Part shown: piece by piece, positions 4,762 through 21,160 of the stretch
Numbering within the stretch: the first letter of the stretch is position 1
How the letters are laid out: each line of letters begins with the position of its first letter
Origin: Methylacidiphilum sp. Yel
Lineage (GTDB): Bacteria > Verrucomicrobiota > Verrucomicrobiia > Methylacidiphilales > Methylacidiphilaceae
DNA length: 64,000 bases
Assembly: GCF_004421185.1 (NCBI RefSeq)
Contig: NZ_LXQB01000078.1
Location: 1-64,000, forward strand
Direction: 5' to 3'
Position numbers and translations under genes: made by a program
The notes under the pieces: generated by a model
Told to the model about the DNA's origin: nothing
Databases searched by the model: none
The model's input: the letters and a program-made list of their open reading frames with translations, nothing else

Positions 4762-6602
4762 AGAAGGCGACACAATTTTCAACGCATCGACTCAAGAAGC
4801 TTTCTTTTCTACCTGCCCTTTTTGATTCCTTTGCCATTTATAAGCGGACGTTGCCTTACTATCAACCTTTCTTTCCAAAACTCCTTCTCTGCGCATTGTT
4901 GATTATTCTTTCTGTGGGGTTGAATATCTTACGACCTTGGCCAGTGAAATGGCTCATTGACGACGTGCTACTAAAAACTATCAATCACCTCCCCCATGGT
5001 TATAGGCACAATCTTCTGACCACTGCTTTTATTGGCTGCGCAGCCTTATTTCTAATCTATTTGATCCATGGCCAATTATCCCTTCTAATCAATTCTTTAC
5101 TCTATCGCATAGGGTTATCGGCCCTTCTAAAATTAAGAACTGATACTTTCTCCTTCCTTCAATATCTTCCATTGCGTTTTCATGAATCGAACAAAAGTGG
5201 GGACATAGTCTATCGAATTGCCTATGACAGCCAATCAATACTGACCATGTTGATCAGAGGATTTAGCACTATCTTTAGTTCTTCTCTCCTTCTCATCGGG
5301 ACATTACTGGTGATGCTGAAGCTTAATCTATATCTAGCCACAACAGCCCTAGGCATTGCACCTTTGTTATGGGCAATTATCTCAGCCAATACTGCTAAAA
5401 TCAAACAAAAAAGTACCCGAGTCCAAGAACAGGAAAGCAATCTTTTGGCAGAGACCTCAGAAAGAATTTCTTCGATGCGGTTGATTCAAGCTTTCTCTAA
5501 AGAAGAAGAATCAATAGCATCTTTTGAAAAAGCAGCTTGGAACAGTCTGAACGCCAACTATGAATACCTGCAGACTAGTAACTTCTCTTCCCTTCTTATA
5601 ACAATGACCACAGCCTTCGGAACAGCCCTGATACTTTTCATAGGGACGAATGAAGTCTGGAAAGGAAGATTATCTATTGGGCAATTATGGATTTTTCTAA
5701 GTTATCTGGCTTCCTTATACCAACCGATGGAACAGCTCAGTTACACGTCTTGGGCTTTGGAAAGTGCCACAAGTAGCATGAAAAGAATTTTCGAACTCTT
5801 TGAGATTCCTAATGAAGTTTCAGAGCCTTCTAATGGAATTGTTTTGAAGGCTCCACAAGGTAAAATAGAATTTAGAAACGTCTCTTTCGAGTATCACCCA
5901 GGAAAGCCAGTTCTCAAAAATATAAGTTTCACTGTCAATCCTGGAGAACGGGTTGCTATTGTAGGTCCCACAGGATCCGGAAAAACAACCATTCTCTCCT
6001 TACTCTGTAGGTTTTATGATCCTATCGAAGGCGCTATCACTATCGACGGCATTGACTTACGAAACATGACCAAAAAATCATTACGCCAACATATTTCTCT
6101 AGTCTTACAAGATACCATTCTATTCAATACGAGCGTCGAAGAAAATATCAAATTCGGAAAAGAGGGAACGAGTCACGATCAAATCATCGAAGCAGCAAAA
6201 GAAGCTTCAGTCGATTCGTTTATTACCCAACTTCCAAAAGGATATGATACGATTGTAGGAGAAAAAGGGGCACTTCTCAGCGGAGGACAAAGACAAAGAA
6301 TAGGCTTAGCCAGAGCTTTCTTAAGAAATTCTCCAATCCTTCTTTTGGACGAACCAACCAGCTCTTTAGATTTAAAAACGGAACTAGAACTTATGTCTTC
6401 TTTACTACACCTTATGAAAAATAAGACTACTCTCTTCGTTACCCATAGGCTACACATCATTCATTCTTGGGAACGCATTCTTGTGATAGTAGATGGGAAA
6501 ATCTGTGAAGAAGGAAGCGGTAAAGAACTATTAGACAAAAAAGGGCTCTTCTATCAGCTGTGGAAAGCAGGCAATTTTTTCTCACCTTCTACTATTCTTT
6601 AA
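4758..6602 (+). CDS. MsbA/NdvA-type ABC exporter (fused permease and ATPase)
   Basis: This is a half-transporter of 614 residues. Six transmembrane helices lie in roughly residues 35-330, and an ABC ATPase domain in 365-600. Walker A is GPTGSGKTT starting at G403, the signature LSGGQ is at 507-511, and Walker B ends in D531-E532 (LLLDEPTSSLD), followed by a TH-R H-loop region. It should work as a homodimer exporting a lipid-linked or polymeric substrate across the inner membrane. The start codon overlaps the stop of the glycosidase/GT2 gene (ATGA), so the simplest reading is export of that enzyme's glycan. MsbA-like lipid flipping is possible. Its 3' end overlaps the convergent regulator by 11 bp. 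Confidence 0.9.
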   Translation: MKKATQFSTHRLKKLSFLPALFDSFAIYKRTLPYYQPFFPKLLLCALLIILSVGLNILRPWPVKWLIDDVLLKTINHLPHGYRHNLLTTAFIGCAALFLIYLIHGQLSLLINSLLYRIGLSALLKLRTDTFSFLQYLPLRFHESNKSGDIVYRIAYDSQSILTMLIRGFSTIFSSSLLLIGTLLVMLKLNLYLATTALGIAPLLWAIISANTAKIKQKSTRVQEQESNLLAETSERISSMRLIQAFSKEEESIASFEKAAWNSLNANYEYLQTSNFSSLLITMTTAFGTALILFIGTNEVWKGRLSIGQLWIFLSYLASLYQPMEQLSYTSWALESATSSMKRIFELFEIPNEVSEPSNGIVLKAPQGKIEFRNVSFEYHPGKPVLKNISFTVNPGERVAIVGPTGSGKTTILSLLCRFYDPIEGAITIDGIDLRNMTKKSLRQHISLVLQDTILFNTSVEENIKFGKEGTSHDQIIEAAKEASVDSFITQLPKGYDTIVGEKGALLSGGQRQRIGLARAFLRNSPILLLDEPTSSLDLKTELELMSSLLHLMKNKTTLFVTHRLHIIHSWERILVIVDGKICEEGSGKELLDKKGLFYQLWKAGNFFSPSTIL

Positions 6603-7743
6603 CCTCTTTGACTATTTTCCCTAAAGCCTCAAAACTATAACCAGGTAATAAGGCTAAATCATCTTTAAGATCCCCAGATTTGAGAAAATCAAGAAATTTT
6701 TCTACCGCAGGCTGCAAAATTAAATCATGAGGTATAGCTAACCAAAATTCCATCTCATAGAGAGGAACAAAATCCAAGGAAGTAATCTCCGCACAAGCCC
6801 TCGAACTTAATCCAACATCGGCAAATCCATACCCAACCGCCTTGGCAACATCCAAAGCAGTAGCTAGCTCAATCCGATATCCGTTAATTTGATGTGGTTG
6901 GATCCCCGCTTTATTGAGCAAGCTGTCAAGCAATATACGGGTTCCAGAGCCATCTTCTCTATTGACAAAGCGGACATTTTTTTGGAGGAGATCTTCTACT
7001 TGCCGTATTTTCAATGGATTGCCAGGTTTAACCACAAACCCTTCTTCCCACTTACTAAAAGCGAAAATTAAGCCTCCTGTCTTGGCCAATGCTTCGGTGC
7101 CACTTGCGATATTGTTTTTTGGATGCTCCTTAGGAAAATGGAAACCACCTACATGAGCAAATCCCAATTGCAGAGAACTTAAGGCTTTAAGACTTGGTTG
7201 TCTGAACCACCATAGCTTAAAGTCAGAATACCTAGCAAGACGATTGGAGAGCATTCCAAGAGCGGGATCACACCCAACCAAAAAAATTTGCTTTTCTATT
7301 TCTGAATATGGGCAAAGAAGCCTCAGTTGTCGACAATTCCCTTCAGAACTTACCCGAAAAGCATTCGCTTCAACATAGCCAAGATTTAACTCTAGACTGG
7401 CAGAAGGCCATGCAATCTTTTTTCCTCTTACCTCTCCCACCACCAATCTGTCTGGGCTTTTTTCAGTGAAGGTATTTTGCTGATCCACCCCAACAATGCA
7501 ATCGACATCTACAAAATCGGGGCTATAAGGAAAAAGAAACTCGACACTTTTTCCTAAAACTCGAGCCAACCTAAGAGCCACGGCCGTATTAGGTATATAG
7601 CGCCCATTTTCCATCGCATGAATGCTTTGGCGACTTACCCCAATTTTTGAAGCAAGTTCCTTTTGGGATAGACCTTTGCCAATCCTTGTCAACCGAAGAG
7701 GATTATTAATGAGAGAATCTTTTAAAGCCATCTTTCTACGCAT
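6592..7743 (-). CDS. XRE-type transcription regulator with periplasmic-binding-protein-like ligand domain
   Basis: The protein has 383 residues. Residues about 17-70 form a Cro/C1 helix-turn-helix (GLSQKELASKIGVSRQSI, MENGRYIPNTAVALRLARVLG). Residues 150-370 resemble the type 2 periplasmic binding fold seen in molybdate-sensing one-component regulators: VGCDPALGMLSNRL, NREDGSGTRILLDSLL, GYRIELATALDVAKAVGYGFADVGLSSRA. It has no signal peptide, so it is a cytosolic ligand-responsive regulator. An oxyanion such as molybdate or tungstate is suggested by the family but not shown. The gene begins 18 bp after ftsZ ends on the same strand, so it may be co-transcribed with the dcw cluster. Its targets are unknown. 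Confidence 0.8.
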   Translation of the reverse strand: MRRKMALKDSLINNPLRLTRIGKGLSQKELASKIGVSRQSIHAMENGRYIPNTAVALRLARVLGKSVEFLFPYSPDFVDVDCIVGVDQQNTFTEKSPDRLVVGEVRGKKIAWPSASLELNLGYVEANAFRVSSEGNCRQLRLLCPYSEIEKQIFLVGCDPALGMLSNRLARYSDFKLWWFRQPSLKALSSLQLGFAHVGGFHFPKEHPKNNIASGTEALAKTGGLIFAFSKWEEGFVVKPGNPLKIRQVEDLLQKNVRFVNREDGSGTRILLDSLLNKAGIQPHQINGYRIELATALDVAKAVGYGFADVGLSSRACAEITSLDFVPLYEMEFWLAIPHDLILQPAVEKFLDFLKSGDLKDDLALLPGYSFEALGKIVKEVKE

Positions 7744-7760: not shown

Positions 7761-8882
7761 TCAAATTTTAATAGAGATCCCTTTTCTTAAAAAAGCTGGC
7801 AGATCCAAATTAACTCCTTTATGGACCGTTTTATAGCCTTTGGTAAAAATACCAGTTGAAATGCTGTCTTTTTGAAGACCATCGTCAGGTTGTGTAGAGC
7901 TTTTATTATCGGCAAGGATAGTATCGGTCCTTTCGAGTTGTTTTTCTATCTCTGTTTCAATAAACTTTTCTCCAGCAGCATTACCAATAAGAACAAACCC
8001 CTCCTCTCTAGCATCCATATTTTCTCTATTTTCTCTAATAATACTTAGATAGAAACGGTCGAACAAGCTTTCTTCAGCCTTGAAAAGGCTTCGTAAATCT
8101 TCCTCAGTTTTCGTAGGAGAAAGAAAAAAACAAACCCAGGCCACCTTCCTATTCTGTTCTAAACCGACATCCTTAGCCGGCTGCAAATAAGGTTGTATCT
8201 TGTCGGGTAGTTTCTCTACACCTCGTAAGGAAAAACTATAAAAGTCTTCGACAAAGAGAAGGGAAGGGAAATTTGTGCTATCAAAAGGAGCTTCTTCTGT
8301 AGCCGCTTGGGTTAAGTGGTACCAACAGGAAATGATAGAGCTTACTTTTTTATTAAGATTTCTATACACTCGAAGGGGATCGTCTGCTGGACCAAAAACT
8401 CCCTTTGCTTTTTCGTTAGAGAAAAAAATGAACTGATGAGGAAACTCTAAAAGTTCTTGCACTGTTTTTCTTGCAGTGTCTTGACGCGAAAAGGCCTCAG
8501 AATGGAACGGAAGAAAAGCTATAGAACTAAGCGTCTTGATTCTTTCGCTGGCTTTTCTAGAAAAAAATTGGAGCCCTGCACTGCCCATAGCCCCTCCAAG
8601 CCCAGATAAAACTAACAAATGCTCACATTCCTCCAATATCTGTTCAATTCTCGGTTCTTCTTCCTCGAAAATCTTCGACGCCAATTCCAAATCCCCACAA
8701 GTTCCTAACCCCTTTGTCGCCTCTTTGCCAAGTAGTATTCTTCTTTCAGCAAGGCTTCCTTCTACACTCGAAAAATCAGCATCCAAGGCATAAAAGAGGC
8801 CACTAGGCTCTTCAGCTAAGATCCATTCGTCCAATAGATTAATCCCCGCTTTCCCTATCCCCACAACGACATTTTTCGTCAA
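7761..8882 (-). CDS. ftsZ: Divergent FtsZ, degenerate GTP-binding and catalytic motifs
   Basis: The protein has 373 residues and lies directly downstream of ftsA, the usual place of ftsZ. The fold can be followed along canonical FtsZ: VVVGIGKAGIN for the first glycine loop, FYALDAD for the FFAVNTD segment, TKGLG at 57-61, and a conserved C-terminal peptide DLPAFLRK at 360-367, which in FtsZ binds FtsA and other partners. The tubulin signature GGGTGTG is replaced by GGAMGSA (96-102). The T7 loop, normally NVDFAD, reads around DSTNFPSLL (201-209), with no acidic residue where the two catalytic aspartates should be. GTP hydrolysis is therefore doubtful, while docking to FtsA seems kept. Upstream is ftsA (37-bp gap); downstream is the XRE regulator. 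Confidence 0.85.
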   Translation of the reverse strand: MTKNVVVGIGKAGINLLDEWILAEEPSGLFYALDADFSSVEGSLAERRILLGKEATKGLGTCGDLELASKIFEEEEPRIEQILEECEHLLVLSGLGGAMGSAGLQFFSRKASERIKTLSSIAFLPFHSEAFSRQDTARKTVQELLEFPHQFIFFSNEKAKGVFGPADDPLRVYRNLNKKVSSIISCWYHLTQAATEEAPFDSTNFPSLLFVEDFYSFSLRGVEKLPDKIQPYLQPAKDVGLEQNRKVAWVCFFLSPTKTEEDLRSLFKAEESLFDRFYLSIIRENRENMDAREEGFVLIGNAAGEKFIETEIEKQLERTDTILADNKSSTQPDDGLQKDSISTGIFTKGYKTVHKGVNLDLPAFLRKGISIKI

Positions 8883-8919
8883 AAGAACCCTTCCTTTTGT
8901 AGTGTAAATGAAATGGTGA

Positions 8920-10158
8920 TTAATTTAAAAATTTGATATTTCCTAAAAATCGCAAGAGTGAAGAACGCATTTTTCCAAGCAGTCCTTCTTTTAGACTCTC
9001 CATTTCGAATATCCGCCCATATCTGAGTAAGCCTAAAACGGTATACAGATCTGGCCTATCGAGATAGGATTGATCTCCTTTAAAAGGCAGCGATTCAGCC
9101 AATTTAACAGGATGGCCAAAGATTTTTTGAGCTAGCTCTTCTACTCCATCGATCTTGCTCCCTCCGCCAGTCAAATAGATGGTTCCTGTAAAATGAGGCC
9201 AAAAAGATTGCATTTCCAAATCCTCTTTGATAATTTCAAAAATTTCTTCTTGCCGGGCTCGCATAATTTTTACAATTGCATTATAAGGCACCAACCTTTC
9301 TTCGGGAAGCAGATGATTGCTTGTTGTCAGTCTCTTTTTAATGGATTCAGAGCCTAACTTAAAGGAACCAAAATGTTTCTTTATTTCTTCTGCTTGAGGA
9401 AATGGAATTCTTAAGGCCAGAGCTAAGTCATTGGTTAAATGATCTTGTCCTACCCCAATCACCCCAGAGTGAACAATAATGCCTCCATGATAAACGATAT
9501 AGTCGGTTAGCCCTGCTCCTAGGTCAATAACGATCGCTCCCTGCATTTTCTGACTCCGTGTGAGCACCGCTTGAGCTGTTGCAAAGATACTCAGACAGTA
9601 ATTGCAAATATCAATAGAAAGCTCTTTTACGCACCGGACAGTCGTTTGAAGCCTCGTAGCAATGCCTGAAATGAGATGATACTCCGCCGTCAGCTTCTTT
9701 GAAAAAAGGCCGATAGGATTTTCCGTCAGGGTTCCATCATCTAAAGAATAGGTTTTCAATAGGTCATGTAAAAGGATTTGTCCAGTCGGCAAGGCCTGCT
9801 GTCTGACCAAAGACCTGAGTTCCATTAAGTGCTTTTGATCGATGCGATCTCCATCTTCTCCAAGGCTGATAACCACTTTCGAATTGAACGATCGGATATG
9901 TGCCCCACTAATGGCAAGATAAACTTCTTCGATCGCAACATTGGTTTTTGCTTCAGCTTCTACAATAGCATCATGTACCGATTTTTGAGCTAGCTCAAAA
10001 TCGACGATTTCCCCCTTTCTCACATTGAGCGAAGGGCTCTCAGCAATACCCAATAAGTAGAGCTCACCCCCTTCCCTTAGTTCAGCTACCGAACAAGCAA
10101 TTTTGCTAGTCCCTATTTCAAGCCCAACAAGAATTGGCCATTCTTTCTTCCAAAACAT
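8920..10158 (-). CDS. ftsA: Cell division protein FtsA
   Basis: FtsA is the actin-like ATPase that tethers FtsZ to the inner membrane. The 412-residue protein shows LVGLEIGTSKIACSVAE (phosphate-1 loop), the 1C subdomain region (about 85-165), VIDLGAGLTDYIVY (phosphate 2) and a TGGGSKIDGVEELA adenosine motif near residue 340. The C terminus, KMRSSLLRFLGNIKFLN, is a plausible amphipathic membrane-targeting helix. All main ATPase motifs look intact, in contrast to the neighbouring FtsZ. It sits between ftsQ and ftsZ in the standard order and is probably co-transcribed. Confidence 0.95.
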   Translation of the reverse strand: MFWKKEWPILVGLEIGTSKIACSVAELREGGELYLLGIAESPSLNVRKGEIVDFELAQKSVHDAIVEAEAKTNVAIEEVYLAISGAHIRSFNSKVVISLGEDGDRIDQKHLMELRSLVRQQALPTGQILLHDLLKTYSLDDGTLTENPIGLFSKKLTAEYHLISGIATRLQTTVRCVKELSIDICNYCLSIFATAQAVLTRSQKMQGAIVIDLGAGLTDYIVYHGGIIVHSGVIGVGQDHLTNDLALALRIPFPQAEEIKKHFGSFKLGSESIKKRLTTSNHLLPEERLVPYNAIVKIMRARQEEIFEIIKEDLEMQSFWPHFTGTIYLTGGGSKIDGVEELAQKIFGHPVKLAESLPFKGDQSYLDRPDLYTVLGLLRYGRIFEMESLKEGLLGKMRSSLLRFLGNIKFLN

Positions 10159-10189: not shown

Positions 10190-11059
10190 TTACTGAAATA
10201 TTACTGGTACATTTTGCTCCGGAGTCAGATCGACCATGGAAATTTTACGGCCATGGCTCTGAGAAAAAGAATAAATTTTTTGCAGTCTTTGTACCTGTTC
10301 ATTCAAATGATCGATCCGGAAGGTAAGCCGGACTCCATCTCTCGTAAGAAGACCTATAGAAAGTGGCCTTGAGACATCGATAGTTTGCGGATCAAAGGGG
10401 AAGTGTAAAGAAGAATTTTCTAATATATGAAGCAAATTAAGGGCAGCAGAAACCTCCGGTTCTTCTATTCTTTTTTTTCCTTCAATCAATTTCAAAGGAA
10501 CCCCCACCATTTCTGGCAAAGAAAGAAGATCCTCTCTATTTTCTGTTACAAACGGATAGCCTTTTTCATCAAGACAATATTTCCTATTCTCTTTGGATTT
10601 CACTGCCAATCTCACAACAGGTTTTCTTTCCCAAATCCTTATTAGGAGGCGATCGGGAAGTTCTCTCCTTACAAGGGCTTTATCTACTTCTTGAATGGAA
10701 CAAACTTTCGAATAGATATCCCTCAATGACAAATTAAAGATGTTATCTCCAACATGCACATTCGAAGCACGGATGACCTCGTCTTTTGTGATTCGTCCGC
10801 TCCCGATCAGCTCAACATCAATGTGTCTAAGCTGATAGCCATAACGGGCTAATAGATTGTTTTTAAAATAATCCCAGCTTTTGAATCCTCCGACAGTTCC
10901 AATCACAAGCAATCCGATATATAACAATGCTCTTAATAAAAGAGAAAATTTGATCCTTTTTTTAGGTAGTCTTTCTTTGCCTTCGACGTGCAAAAACTCC
11001 ATTGGAGCTTTCTTGAGTCGATTCTTTTTTCTCTTTTTTGGCCTGTTCAATACCTTCAT
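10190..11059 (-). CDS. ftsQ: Cell division protein FtsQ
   Basis: This is a bitopic inner-membrane protein of 289 residues. It has a strongly basic cytoplasmic N terminus (RPKKRKKNRLKK), one transmembrane helix at about 40-60, a POTRA domain of about 75-150 (IDVELIGSGRITKDEVIRAS, GDNIFNLSLRDI, ERKPVVRL) and a beta-rich C-terminal domain. FtsQ links FtsL and the septal synthases to the divisome. Sequence identity is low, as usual for FtsQ, and the call rests on topology, the POTRA domain and position between ddl and ftsA. Confidence 0.88.
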   Translation of the reverse strand: MKVLNRPKKRKKNRLKKAPMEFLHVEGKERLPKKRIKFSLLLRALLYIGLLVIGTVGGFKSWDYFKNNLLARYGYQLRHIDVELIGSGRITKDEVIRASNVHVGDNIFNLSLRDIYSKVCSIQEVDKALVRRELPDRLLIRIWERKPVVRLAVKSKENRKYCLDEKGYPFVTENREDLLSLPEMVGVPLKLIEGKKRIEEPEVSAALNLLHILENSSLHFPFDPQTIDVSRPLSIGLLTRDGVRLTFRIDHLNEQVQRLQKIYSFSQSHGRKISMVDLTPEQNVPVIFQ

Positions 11060-11096: not shown

Positions 11097-12026
11097 TTAG
11101 ATCCTAACACCAAAAGACTCTCTGGCTCGCCATTTGAAGAAAGAAAGTTCTACAATCCTTTCACAAAGCTCTGCAAAATTCAGCCCAGCTGCTTTTGCAG
11201 CCATTGGGAATAGACTGGTTTCAGTCATTCCAGGGATGGTATTTATTTCTAAAACCCAAGGAACCCCGTCTTCTGACAAAATGATATCGACCCTTCCATA
11301 AATAGAGCAGCCCAGGACATGAAAAGCATCCAGAGCTGTTTTCTGCACCGCCTCCCCTTGACTCTTAGTCAACAAAGCCGGACAAATGTATTCTGAAGCT
11401 CCCTTAGTATACTTATTTTGGTAGTCATAAAAGCCCTTTTTGGGTTTAATTTCCACAATAGGAAGCGCTTGGTTATCTAAAATTGCCACCGTCAATTCTC
11501 TTCCCTTGATAAGGGTTTCAGCTATCACGACATGATCAAATTGTTTTGATTTTCTGACCGCTTCCTCAAAATCCTCCATAGCATAGACGAACTCTACCCC
11601 AATGCTTGAACCCTGCCTGGATGGTTTGATGACGTAGGGAGGACCAAAAGGAACTTTTTTTTCTTCACCCACAACAAAAAAAGGTGGGGTAGGAATACCT
11701 CCCTGGACAAAAAGTTTCTTACTCCAAACCTTATCAAAAGCCTTCTCACTGGAAGCAGCATCACTACCTGTAAACGGAATGCCTCGACGCATTAAGAGTC
11801 TTTGTATTTGTCCGTCTTCTCCAAATGTCCCATGAATACACAAAAAACAGATCTCCGTTGATTCAGGCAGTTCGAACTTTTCATTAATTAAGTCGACTGA
11901 TGTCAGCTCATAGCCCAAGGAAAAAAGCGCACTTTCAACTGCCGAAGCTGTCTTAAGAGAAATCTGTCTTTCTTCGGAGGGACCTCCTTTCAAAACAGTT
12001 ATATGTCTAGGCAATCCTTGCTTCAT
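11097..12026 (-). CDS. ddl: D-alanine--D-alanine ligase
   Basis: Ddl makes the D-Ala-D-Ala dipeptide for the pentapeptide stem using ATP. The 309-residue ATP-grasp protein shows VLKGGPSEERQISLKTA at the N terminus, CIHGTFGEDGQIQRLLMRRGIPFTGSD, the ATP-grasp loop KPSRQGSSIGV, and the metal/substrate motif EINTIPGMTETSLFPMAAKAAG. Its ATG overlaps the end of murCB by 4 bp (ATGA type), pointing to translational coupling. All catalytic segments appear present. Confidence 0.95.
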   Translation of the reverse strand: MKQGLPRHITVLKGGPSEERQISLKTASAVESALFSLGYELTSVDLINEKFELPESTEICFLCIHGTFGEDGQIQRLLMRRGIPFTGSDAASSEKAFDKVWSKKLFVQGGIPTPPFFVVGEEKKVPFGPPYVIKPSRQGSSIGVEFVYAMEDFEEAVRKSKQFDHVVIAETLIKGRELTVAILDNQALPIVEIKPKKGFYDYQNKYTKGASEYICPALLTKSQGEAVQKTALDAFHVLGCSIYGRVDIILSEDGVPWVLEINTIPGMTETSLFPMAAKAAGLNFAELCERIVELSFFKWRARESFGVRI

Positions 12027-14308
12027 TGTTCTTCTCCCAAAATGACGACTTCTGTTTCTAGCTCGATGCCCCTTTTTTCAAAAGCCTCCCTTTGAATCAA
12101 GCTAATAAGATCTAATATGTCTTTTGCCGTAGCCCCTCCCTCATTGATAATGAAATTCCCATGTTCTTCCGAAACCCTTGCTTTGCCTACTGCCTTATTT
12201 TTTAAACCTAGTTCGTCAATCAATTTTCCTGCTGGAATGCTTTTTGGATTTTTAAAAATACAGCCTGCACTAGAACCTGCAGGTTGACTTTCCACCCGTT
12301 TCATTGAAAACTCTTTTAATTCCCTTGCGATAGTCTCGCTATCCATTGGCTTAGCCACAAGTTGAGCTGAAAGAGCAATGTGATTCTCAAAAAAAGGGAC
12401 TTTTCGATAAAAAACTTCCAGTTCTTGCCGATCAATCTCTCCAATATTCCCTTCCATATCCATAAAGCGGACTCTTCTGACCACATCCATGGTCGATCCC
12501 CCCATAGCTCCTGCATTCATTCTTAAGGCACCCCCTAAGCTACCAGGTATGCCTTCCATAAAGGAAAGGCCTCCAAGCCCATGCTTTTTAGCTTCATAGA
12601 CTATAGTCCGCAACTTGACCCCGCATCCTGCAAAAATCAAATGATCTTCAAAACGGATCTCACAGAAATTGGGATGGGCTAAATGGATACAAAGACCTTT
12701 GATGCCACCGTCACGAACAAGAAGGTTCGTTCCCTTGCCAATCCACACCACAGGCAAAGCCTGTTCTTTGGCAAATCGTAAAAGCAAGGCAAGATCAGAC
12801 TCGGTTGCTGGTTCTGCCCAGATTTCAGCAGGCCCTCCAACCCTCAAAGTCGTATGCCTACTTAATGGTTCATTTATCAAAAGCTTTGCATCAGCCGACA
12901 ATTTACTTTTAAGGTGATCAATCATACGCAGATACTCGGTTAATTTTTCCACTGTTTTATAAATATCTCCTGCCCCCATAGTTACTATGGTGTCTCCAGG
13001 TTGCAAGATGGAGATTGTTTTATGGATCAGTCTCTTTTCATCCGGTTCAAAAAAAACCGCTGGATGACCCTGTTCTCTAATGGCTCTAGCTATTGCTGCT
13101 CCATCAACCCCATTAGATGTCTCTCCAGCAGAGAAGATTTCCGTTACCACAACGACATCGGCTTGAAAAAAAGATTTTGAAAAAAGGTTTTGCATCTTTT
13201 GTGCTCGGCTATATCTATGAGGCTGGAATAGAGCAACCGTTCTTCTGCCACGTCCTTTTGCCGAACTCAACGTCGTTTTAATCTCTGTCGGATGATGGGC
13301 ATAATCATCGATGAGTTCGAAATAGTTGCCTTTAAATTTCAATTCAAACCTTCTTCTTATTCCTGGGAAGTTCCCAAGGGCACGAGCTGCTCTCAAAGGC
13401 GAAATTCCAAGGGTCGTTGTCAGCGATAGAGCAGCAAGAGCATTTTGCACGTTTTGAATACCCGGAATCGCCAAGGAAATTTCACACAGCCATTCCTCCC
13501 CTTTATAGAAATGATAGCCTGAAGTGCTTGTTGAAGCCTTCATCCAAAATGCCGCTGCTCTTTCTCTTAAGCTATAATTGATGACTCCCTGTTTTTTCCA
13601 CTCTGCGATGAGTTGGCAATGAGGGTCATCCTGATTATAGACCACTGTATCAGTCGTTCTGGCAACCATTTCTCTAAAAGTCAAAACGATAGAATGAATA
13701 TCTGCATAATAATTGAGATGCTCTTCCTCAATATTTAAAACAACCAGAGCATGCGGAGAGAAATACAAAAAACTGCCATCGCTTTCATCTCCTTCAATGA
13801 CCATATACTCTCCAGGACTCCACCGCGCACTCTCTCTAAGAGAAATCGGTTCAGCTCCCAAATAAAAGGAAGGATTTAGCCCACATTCCTGGAGGATCCA
13901 GGCAATCATGGCAGAGGTCGTACTTTTTCCATGCATTCCACTAACAAGAAGGACTTTTTTTTCTGCAGCCAAAAGAGAAAGTAAAAAGGCCCTTTTGACA
14001 AGGGGTATGCCAAATTTTCGGCAAGCCTCCAATTCAGGGTTGGCTAAGGGTATTGCCGATGAATAGCACACTAGATCAGCAGCTACTACCTGAGATTGGT
14101 CATGCGTTGGATAAAACTCCAATCCATGGGCTATTAGTTTTTGGGCTTTTTCAGTCGGTTCGTGGTCTGAACCACTGACTTTGTAGCCTCTTGCAAGTAA
14201 CAGGAGAGCCAGCGGAGCCATCCCGCTGCCACAAACTCCTAATAAATGAATCTTCGAGCGGTTGTTCTTGAGGATGTTTTGAACTAGTTCTCTTTCTTTA
14301 GCAGACAT
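12023..14308 (-). CDS. murC/murB: Fused UDP-MurNAc:L-alanine ligase / UDP-GlcNAc-enolpyruvate reductase (MurC-MurB)
   Basis: A single 761-residue frame holds two successive but chemically distinct steps. Residues 1-455 are MurC: HLLGVCGSGMAPLA at the N terminus, the ATP loop GMHGKSTT near 124-131, DDYAHHPTEI and FQPHRYSR. Residues about 470-761 are MurB: the FAD-binding TLRVGGPAE and GKGTNLLVRDGG, SFMEGIPGSLGGALRMNAG, and the proton-donor segment AGCIFKNP, in which C683 stands where many MurB proteins have serine. A methionine at 462 marks the junction, but no separate ribosome binding site or break is seen, so one polypeptide is expected. It overlaps murG by 25 bp and ddl by 4 bp. Confidence 0.93.
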   Translation of the reverse strand: MSAKERELVQNILKNNRSKIHLLGVCGSGMAPLALLLLARGYKVSGSDHEPTEKAQKLIAHGLEFYPTHDQSQVVAADLVCYSSAIPLANPELEACRKFGIPLVKRAFLLSLLAAEKKVLLVSGMHGKSTTSAMIAWILQECGLNPSFYLGAEPISLRESARWSPGEYMVIEGDESDGSFLYFSPHALVVLNIEEEHLNYYADIHSIVLTFREMVARTTDTVVYNQDDPHCQLIAEWKKQGVINYSLRERAAAFWMKASTSTSGYHFYKGEEWLCEISLAIPGIQNVQNALAALSLTTTLGISPLRAARALGNFPGIRRRFELKFKGNYFELIDDYAHHPTEIKTTLSSAKGRGRRTVALFQPHRYSRAQKMQNLFSKSFFQADVVVVTEIFSAGETSNGVDGAAIARAIREQGHPAVFFEPDEKRLIHKTISILQPGDTIVTMGAGDIYKTVEKLTEYLRMIDHLKSKLSADAKLLINEPLSRHTTLRVGGPAEIWAEPATESDLALLLRFAKEQALPVVWIGKGTNLLVRDGGIKGLCIHLAHPNFCEIRFEDHLIFAGCGVKLRTIVYEAKKHGLGGLSFMEGIPGSLGGALRMNAGAMGGSTMDVVRRVRFMDMEGNIGEIDRQELEVFYRKVPFFENHIALSAQLVAKPMDSETIARELKEFSMKRVESQPAGSSAGCIFKNPKSIPAGKLIDELGLKNKAVGKARVSEEHGNFIINEGGATAKDILDLISLIQREAFEKRGIELETEVVILGEEQ

Positions 14309-19826: not shown

Positions 19827-19969
19827 TCTTATTTCGGCCCTACAACCCTAACTAATTAGAATGGTGGTTGCAGTAAAAATAGCCGCCTCGTTGTTCCTTA
19901 ACCTTTTGTATAACTACGCTGATGCTCTTTCAAGAATTTAATGTATATCCGCCTTTCCATGGCTGCCAC

Positions 19970-20478
19970 CTAACCATTTGCTCCGTCAGACTTACTCATT
20001 TCTATTAACACAGGTTCGAAGCTGACTTCCTGGTTCACCGAGGCTGGTTTCTCTCGGGCCTTGCGACCCGAGCCAGAGCCTTCCTCTCCACAGGCTTCAC
20101 ATTCAGCCGGCCTTCTCTGTAGAGCCGATTAGGACGCCCAATCCATACGCTAGGAGAATTTTGACCACATTCACCTCCCAGTCCTGAAGGGGTTCTACAG
20201 TCCGGACATCACCACTCTCGGACGGCCAGCGGCATTTTTTCCTACACCGCCCTACCAGTCGAACAGCTCTTGCTGGACGGAAACCAGCGGTCGGCCACCA
20301 CCACTAGCTCGCTACCCAACTTTGCCTTGTATTCCAGTTTCCGCCTTAATTCGAAGAAACCCACGTCGGATAGGGAGCTGGCCAGATGCCGGTTCCTCAC
20401 TATGCCGCCACCCGCCTTGGCAAAGTAGTTGACCTGCTTATGGTTTGGGTCTAGCGCGATTTTATGGGCAACGATCAT
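19970..20478 (-). pseudogene. Degenerate TnpB/OrfB transposon-associated nuclease
   Basis: The frame opens at ATG 20478, overlapping the end of the resolvase remnant. It reads IALDPNHKQVNYFAKAGGG, the usual TnpB N terminus, then jumps directly to NRHLASSLSDVGFFELRRKLEYKAK and VVVADRWFPSSKSCSTG, the RuvC-III/zinc-ribbon end of the family, so most of the centre has been deleted. Several stops follow. A late stretch, CEACGEEGSGSGRKAREKPAS, resembles the normal C-terminal tail and ends at the stop at 19970. Intact TnpB is about 400 residues. Confidence 0.75.
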
Positions 20479-21106
20479 AGCTGGGATTCCTTTAGGGCTT
20501 TTTTGACACCAGAAAGCAGCTTCTGGGTCTTGCCTGAGCGGCTATCCTGCAGCCGGGCGCTGAACACAGGGATGCGCTCCAGCACCTCCTTGGCCAAATC
20601 TTCCTCAAAGGTCGTCTCCTCACCCTGGTTGAGGATCACAACCTCAACCCCCGTTGGCCTCGCAATTAACGAACTCCAGTTCCGCACCAAAGCCCATCAG
20701 CCGGTCTTTGTGGGTGATGGACCAGGCGTCCAACCTGCCCGTCGATGATCGCATCCAGCAGCCGCTTTAAGCCTTTCTTATGGTAGTTCATGCCAGAACC
20801 CAGGTCGGCAATGACTCGAACGTCCAACCTTGCCGGGCGCAGTTGTGTTCAAGCAGCTGCTTTTGCCGCTACAGCTGATCTTTCTGCTCGAAGCTGGACA
20901 GACGGGCGAAGGCGATGGTGCGACCTACCGCCTCCGGCGCATAGAATTGATCTGGTCGAAGTCGCGCAAGGTCGTAGCGACGCTTCCCCCCCAGCCGTGC
21001 GTTCATCGAAAAGAAGCTTGCCCTCGAGCTCCCAGAGCAACAGCGTTTGCGGCGAGACCACCAGGAACTCGGCGACCTCTTGAATGCTGATTAGCTTGAA
21101 AGACAT
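20475..21106 (-). pseudogene. Degenerate IS607-type serine recombinase (TnpA)
   Basis: From ATG 21106, with GAGG just upstream, the frame reads MSFKLISIQEVAEFLVVSPQTLLLWELEGK, a MerR-like winged-helix start. A frameshift near RTAGG follows, then RRYDLARLRPDQFYAPEA and TIAFARLSSFEQKDQL in another frame (the resolvase start, where the catalytic serine is expected), then an in-frame TAG. Further frameshifts separate VIADLGSGMNYHKKGLKRLL from the final VEVVILNQGEETTFEEDLAKE and KKALKES. At least three lesions are visible, so the gene is dead. It is followed by the TnpB remnant. Confidence 0.8.
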
Positions 21107-21160
21107 CCTCAAAAAACATCTATCTTTGCGCAAGAAAGTGCGAACTTAAATTGAAACTGT

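Follow-up and report, generated by a model that had tools for sequence, protein, structure and literature searches.

A divergent FtsZ of Methylacidiphilum that retains its nucleotide pocket and FtsA-binding peptide but lacks several catalytic residues

Introduction

In the prevailing view, bacterial cell division depends centrally on treadmilling that GTP hydrolysis powers. The ftsZ gene of Methylacidiphilum, a free-living methane-eater of hot springs, raises the question of whether FtsZ must burn GTP to divide a cell. The gene lies in the window (the whole 64,000-nucleotide stretch of DNA that was analyzed), and a first-pass annotation described its product as an FtsZ with an intact FtsA-binding tail but lost GTPase motifs. 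With a sole tubulin-family division protein that has lost most of its catalytic residues, this free-living organism offers a natural test of the treadmilling view, and makes the question a testable one. A report of 2008 mentioned accelerated evolution of ftsZ in M. infernorum, with data not shown (PMC2474590), a 2016 survey recovered the protein only after an alternative query was used (PMC5147048), and verrucomicrobial FtsZs have been named among the most divergent (PMC9871819). The fast evolution of the gene is thus already known; the T4 and T7 losses appear to be new, as no published account of them was found in a search of largely open-access literature.

Identity and Structure of the Protein

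The gene is a genuine ftsZ. Its N-terminal half matches the Pfam Tubulin/FtsZ domain (PF00091) at 73.9 bits against a cut-off of 33, while the full-length ftsZ equivalog model of NCBIfam (TIGR00065) is matched at 63.1 bits and its threshold of 295.2 is missed; this shortfall is divergence at an annotation threshold and not a functional criterion. Structure prediction gave a confident and complete two-domain FtsZ fold (AlphaFold2, 57 rows; pLDDT 84.4, pTM 0.80), with the N-terminal domain mostly above a pLDDT of 90. The best matches of this model in the PDB are all FtsZ (E ~1e-18, TM by target length up to 0.80), and the tubulin-superfamily chains matched in the PDB are FtsZ or archaeal FtsZ-like entries, not the bacterial tubulins BtubA/B. 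A Pfam search gave no match to PF13809, which separates the protein from the Tubulin_2 family. In the FtsZ tree, the sequences of the genus form one clade within the clade of the order (SH-aLRT 100 each), demonstrating vertical orthology within the phylum, and the stem branch of the genus is very long, at ~2 changes per site.

As had been claimed, ftsZ directly follows ftsA; it stands at the end of a division and cell wall (dcw) cluster in which ftsQ, ddl, and a murC-murB fusion precede (Table 1). A leader containing GAAGGG is found ahead of the equivalent ftsZ start in the congeners. The protein shares with the canonical FtsZs of E. coli, S. aureus, and B. subtilis the two-domain tubulin/FtsZ fold, the place after ftsA, the base- and ribose-binding residues, and the C-terminal FtsA-binding peptide. 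Unlike them, it has GGAMGSA in T4, a single T7 aspartate in place of NxDxxD, a helix H8 that is predicted to be missing, and a score of only 63 bits to the equivalog.

Table 1. Coordinates of ftsZ, its motifs, and the adjoining division genes in the window.
Feature	Position	Strand	Basis or remark
ftsZ, 373 a.a.	7761..8882	(-)	ORF; PF00091 E=2.7e-20; AlphaFold2 model; best PDB matches FtsZ
TTG start codon of ftsZ	8882-8880	(-)	ORF reading; stop at 7761
Shine-Dalgarno-like GGAAGGG, 5 nt upstream of the TTG	8888..8895	(-)	Direct sequence reading
T4 nucleotide loop GGAMGSA, residues 96-102	8577..8597	(-)	Canonical GGGTGTG; alignment
T5 contacts E129 (=E138) to R133 (=R142), retained	8484..8498	(-)	Alignment
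T7 segment between H7 and S7, residues 194-207	8262..8303	(-)	No equivalents of N207 and D212; model lacks H8
D201, sole T7 aspartate, probable D209 equivalent	8280..8282	(-)	Asp in 5/5 congeners; register uncertain
C-terminal FtsA-binding peptide LDLPAFLRK, residues 359-367	7782..7808	(-)	Kept in order and phylum
ftsA, membrane anchor partner	8920..10158	(-)	TIGR01174 291.5 bits, cut-off 175.9 (full equivalog)
ftsQ	10190..11059	(-)	POTRA_1 and FtsQ_DivIB_C matches

The T4 Loop and the Nucleotide Pocket

Motif states were read after 86 FtsZs of the Verrucomicrobiota had been aligned with that of E. coli. The T4 loop departs from the signature GGGTG[ST]G and reads GGAMGSA, as first described; all five congeners are fixed for methionine in place of the threonine, and two of them retain the third glycine, and the four congeners with single-contig genomes read either GGAMGSA or GGGMGSA. 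It had been suggested that a sequencing error might conceal intact motifs. Error of sequencing or assembly is refuted by these four independent genomes, which have an equal motif state, and the window has zero N; the chance that remains for it is negligible.

The description of the GTPase motifs as lost proved overstated. It holds for the T4 threonine and for the equivalents of N207 and D212 in T7, but the T4 equivalents of G103, G105, G106, and G109 are retained, as are, by alignment, those of N24, D45, P134, E138, R142, N165, and N186. The R142 equivalent is a glutamine in one congener (G001), and the D187 equivalent is a lysine. The proposal that the protein might use another nucleotide finds no support, as the guanine and ribose side is the conserved part of the pocket.

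The T7 Segment and Helix H8

The T7 motif NxDxxD is not found intact, at most one of its aspartates being retained. The first-pass annotation held that T7 has no aspartate, which is incorrect: the T7 segment contains D201, an aspartate in every congener. In M. infernorum and G001, this residue stands, gap-free, at the exact E. coli D209 distance from the N186 equivalent, while in the window lineage a one-residue insertion has moved it one residue past the D209 position. The D212 position is occupied by serine or glycine in M. infernorum and G001, and, according to MAFFT, by asparagine in the window lineage. Profile-profile alignments give conflicting T7 registers and place D201 elsewhere; D201 is thus likely, though not certainly, the D209 equivalent. 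The ortholog of M. infernorum V4 (Hou et al., 2008; PMC2474590) is 52% identical to the window FtsZ, but differs in keeping the third T4 glycine (GGGMGSA) and in having no T7 insertion.

In the AlphaFold2 model, helix H7 (169-193) is followed by a strand (208-218), without H8. A control model of a relative from the same order, built from the same rows, has H8 at 201-209. Since H8 is missing from the one model and present in the other, the T7/H8 element appears to have been rebuilt in the window lineage.

Motif Erosion Across the Verrucomicrobiota

A search for PF00091 found a match in 235 of 241 verrucomicrobial genomes. The alignment with verrucomicrobial FtsZs, proposed as a check in the first-pass annotation, confirmed the T4 reading and revealed that many members of the phylum have an eroded T7: of 89 aligned FtsZs, one of them from E. 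coli, 12 have both T7 aspartates aligned, 33 have only D209, 32 have only D212, and 12 have neither. These counts are approximate because alignment is poor for the most divergent sequences, and are firm where it is gap-free. These states require 19 changes on the FtsZ tree. Motif loss is therefore phylum-wide and not peculiar to the window gene, with Methylacidiphilum as an extreme case.

In the Verrucomicrobiaceae, all 51 readable FtsZs lack D209 (glycine or serine) and N207 (lysine or arginine) while keeping D212, and 49 of them have GGGTGSG in T4. Their FtsZs (Verrucomicrobium, Prosthecobacter) share with that of the window the phylum, the dcw location, and the absence of one T7 aspartate, but the loss is reciprocal (D212 is kept, and D209 and N207 are gone), T4 is canonical, and a long disordered C-terminal extension is present. 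In three families (f12, f17, and f19), on the other hand, N207 and D209 are retained and threonine occupies the D212 position. The FtsZ of a sister genus (g3) is more eroded than that of Methylacidiphilum: N165 and N186 are lost, D45 is glutamate, T7 has aspartate, glutamate, or glutamine near D209, and the D212 position has proline or arginine.

The reciprocal D209/D212 pattern covers close relatives of V. spinosum, a species in which ftsZ is essential (PMC12283558) and for which genetic tools exist; Verrucomicrobium was sampled as Verrucomicrobium sp. BvORR034 and BvORR106, both among the 51 without D209. Given this essentiality and the lack of D209 in the sampled Verrucomicrobiaceae, an FtsZ of this phylum can likely lose one of its two T7 aspartates and still serve an essential function.

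Conservation and Selection

The ftsZ frame is intact in five species. Among congeners with unsaturated dS, the dN/dS of ftsZ is 0.22-0.30 vs. 0.04-0.16 for ftsA, and between far congeners the amino-acid identity of FtsZ is ~50%, compared with ~80% for FtsA. The gene is thus under purifying selection, constrained but fast-evolving. Constraint is unevenly spread. In the five congeners, 38 of 57 positions in the nucleotide loops are invariant, compared with 155 of 373 in the entire protein (hypergeometric p=3e-5), with 11 of 13 invariant in T4, and the last 31 residues (343-373) are 74% invariant vs. 42% for the whole protein. The GTPase-activating C-terminal domain is 24% invariant and the linker 10%.

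Because the base and ribose residues are kept and the nucleotide loops are conserved well above the average of the protein, nucleotide binding seems to be under selection. The tail reads NLDLPAFLRK, and the claim that a retained DLPAFLRK peptide docks on FtsA is supported both by the conservation of the tail and by FtsA itself, which is a full equivalog (291 vs. 176 bits). The overall pattern is what would be expected if nucleotide binding and FtsA docking were selected and catalysis relaxed. A pseudogene is disfavored by the dN/dS values and by this conservation.

Other Tubulin-Family and Division Genes

The first-pass annotation had raised the possibility of a scaffold beside a second tubulin homolog, and of a canonical ftsZ elsewhere that carries out division alone. 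The genome of the window has one PF00091 gene above cut-off, and in the complete congener G001 the sole tubulin-superfamily match, even at E<=10, is the ortholog of the window ftsZ. Neither a canonical ftsZ elsewhere nor a second tubulin as partner is consistent with these results, as G001 has no other tubulin of any kind. The genome of the window does encode one Tubulin_2 protein (FtsZl1, PF13809; C78:92144-93169, outside the window). Like the window FtsZ, this FtsZ-like 1 family (PMC2875224) belongs to the tubulin superfamily and occurs in the same genome, but its member here is ~1,000 a.a. long and carries PF13809; the gene is present in most genomes of the family that were tested, is absent from the complete G001 and from G005, and is therefore dispensable in the genus. 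Of further division genes, MreB is present and ZapA was looked for and not found. The Min system and FtsEX have been reported lost in M. infernorum (PMC2474590).

Proposed Function and Alternative Explanations

The favored reading, given a probability of about 0.58, is that the protein is the vertically inherited, working division FtsZ of the genus, neither a relic nor the helper of another tubulin. As we infer from the conserved contacts, it would still bind a guanine nucleotide in the N-terminal pocket; it would also polymerize, be anchored by FtsA, and serve mainly as a slow-turnover scaffold. FtsA would tie the filament to the membrane through the intact C-terminal peptide. With no T4 threonine, no T7 asparagine, no second T7 aspartate, and no H8 in the model, the protein probably hydrolyzes GTP at a strongly reduced rate, although some activity may remain via D201 (probable D209) and R133 (=R142). 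The filament would then place septal wall synthesis (FtsW, FtsI), and wall synthesis would drive constriction.

Phenotypes of published mutants in S. aureus, E. coli, and B. subtilis favor an anchored filament with slow hydrolysis and make reduced hydrolysis plausible. In S. aureus FtsZ, the D209 equivalent (D210) swings and positions the catalytic water, while the D212 equivalent keeps its environment (PMC8936486). The E. coli D212G mutant has ~tenfold less activity in one assay, or <1% by an earlier report cited there, and still forms static rings (PMC7320174); it supports division with suppressors, and does not complement without them (PMC5405962). For instance in T4, the B. subtilis mutant T111A retains 13% of GTPase activity with near-normal cell length (PMC3618327). 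The main doubt about the scaffold arises from the same literature, as equivalent changes in other species also harm assembly: D210N, D213N, and N208L of S. aureus (D209, D212, and N207, respectively) abolish it (PMC8936486). By analogy, the N207 and D212 losses could cost polymerization as well as hydrolysis, unless compensated. Dividing cells of M. fumariolicum are visible by microscopy (PMC3460235).

The foremost alternative, which is unlikely yet deserves serious weight, is a divergent but normally active GTPase whose ring treadmills nearly as usual, in which D201 acts as D209, R133 and remodeling replace the rest, and heat offsets the lower catalysis. The aspartate that falls exactly on D209 in two of the congeners, the retained R142, E138, N165, N186, and N24, the swinging, water-positioning role of D210 in S. 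aureus (PMC8936486), and the frequency of a single T7 aspartate among verrucomicrobial FtsZs all agree with it; however, the equivalents of T108, N207, and D212 are lost, H8 is predicted absent, and single changes at comparable sites elsewhere cut GTPase activity ~10-fold or more. The combined loss of those same three residues, the stronger erosion in the sister genus, where N165 and N186 are gone, and the fast evolution of the C-terminal domain would instead suit a scaffold free of hydrolysis, with a structural nucleotide or none, filaments that either stay static or need other factors to dissolve them, and wall synthesis that suffices by itself. Selection on the nucleotide loops implies that binding still matters, and D201 is invariant in the genus, which renders this option rather improbable.

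Chlamydia divides through MreB and FtsK, and a decaying ftsZ with a comparable FtsZ-independent division in Methylacidiphilum would accord with the presence of MreB, the stem of ~2 changes per site, the loss of Min and FtsEX in M. infernorum (PMC2474590), and the loss of ftsZ by relatives in the superphylum (PMC12283558). It is very improbable nonetheless: the frame is open and under purifying selection, the tail and pocket are conserved in five species, and FtsA is kept and slow-evolving, whereas FtsZ-less relatives mostly lack ftsA too (PMC12283558). Beyond the slow-turnover scaffold favored here, a broader proposal is made only tentatively and considered doubtful, namely that much of the phylum divides with an incomplete composite active site of FtsZ, and that the ring of the Methylacidiphilaceae is a nucleotide-bound scaffold essentially without hydrolysis-driven treadmilling.

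Observations on the Surrounding Region

The murC and murB genes of the cluster are one fused gene of 761 a.a. (window 12023-14308), and such a fusion is reportedly present in V. spinosum. The dcw cluster is also interrupted: murE and murF are separated by a decayed IS607-like element (19827-21160), of which a MerR-type helix-turn-helix fragment (20849-21133, minus strand) and an internally shortened TnpB remnant (20242-20478, minus strand) can be recognized. Downstream of ftsZ by 17 bases, and on the same strand, 6592-7743 encodes a protein that combines a helix-turn-helix with a PBP-like substrate-binding domain and is perhaps a metabolite-sensing regulator beside the division genes.
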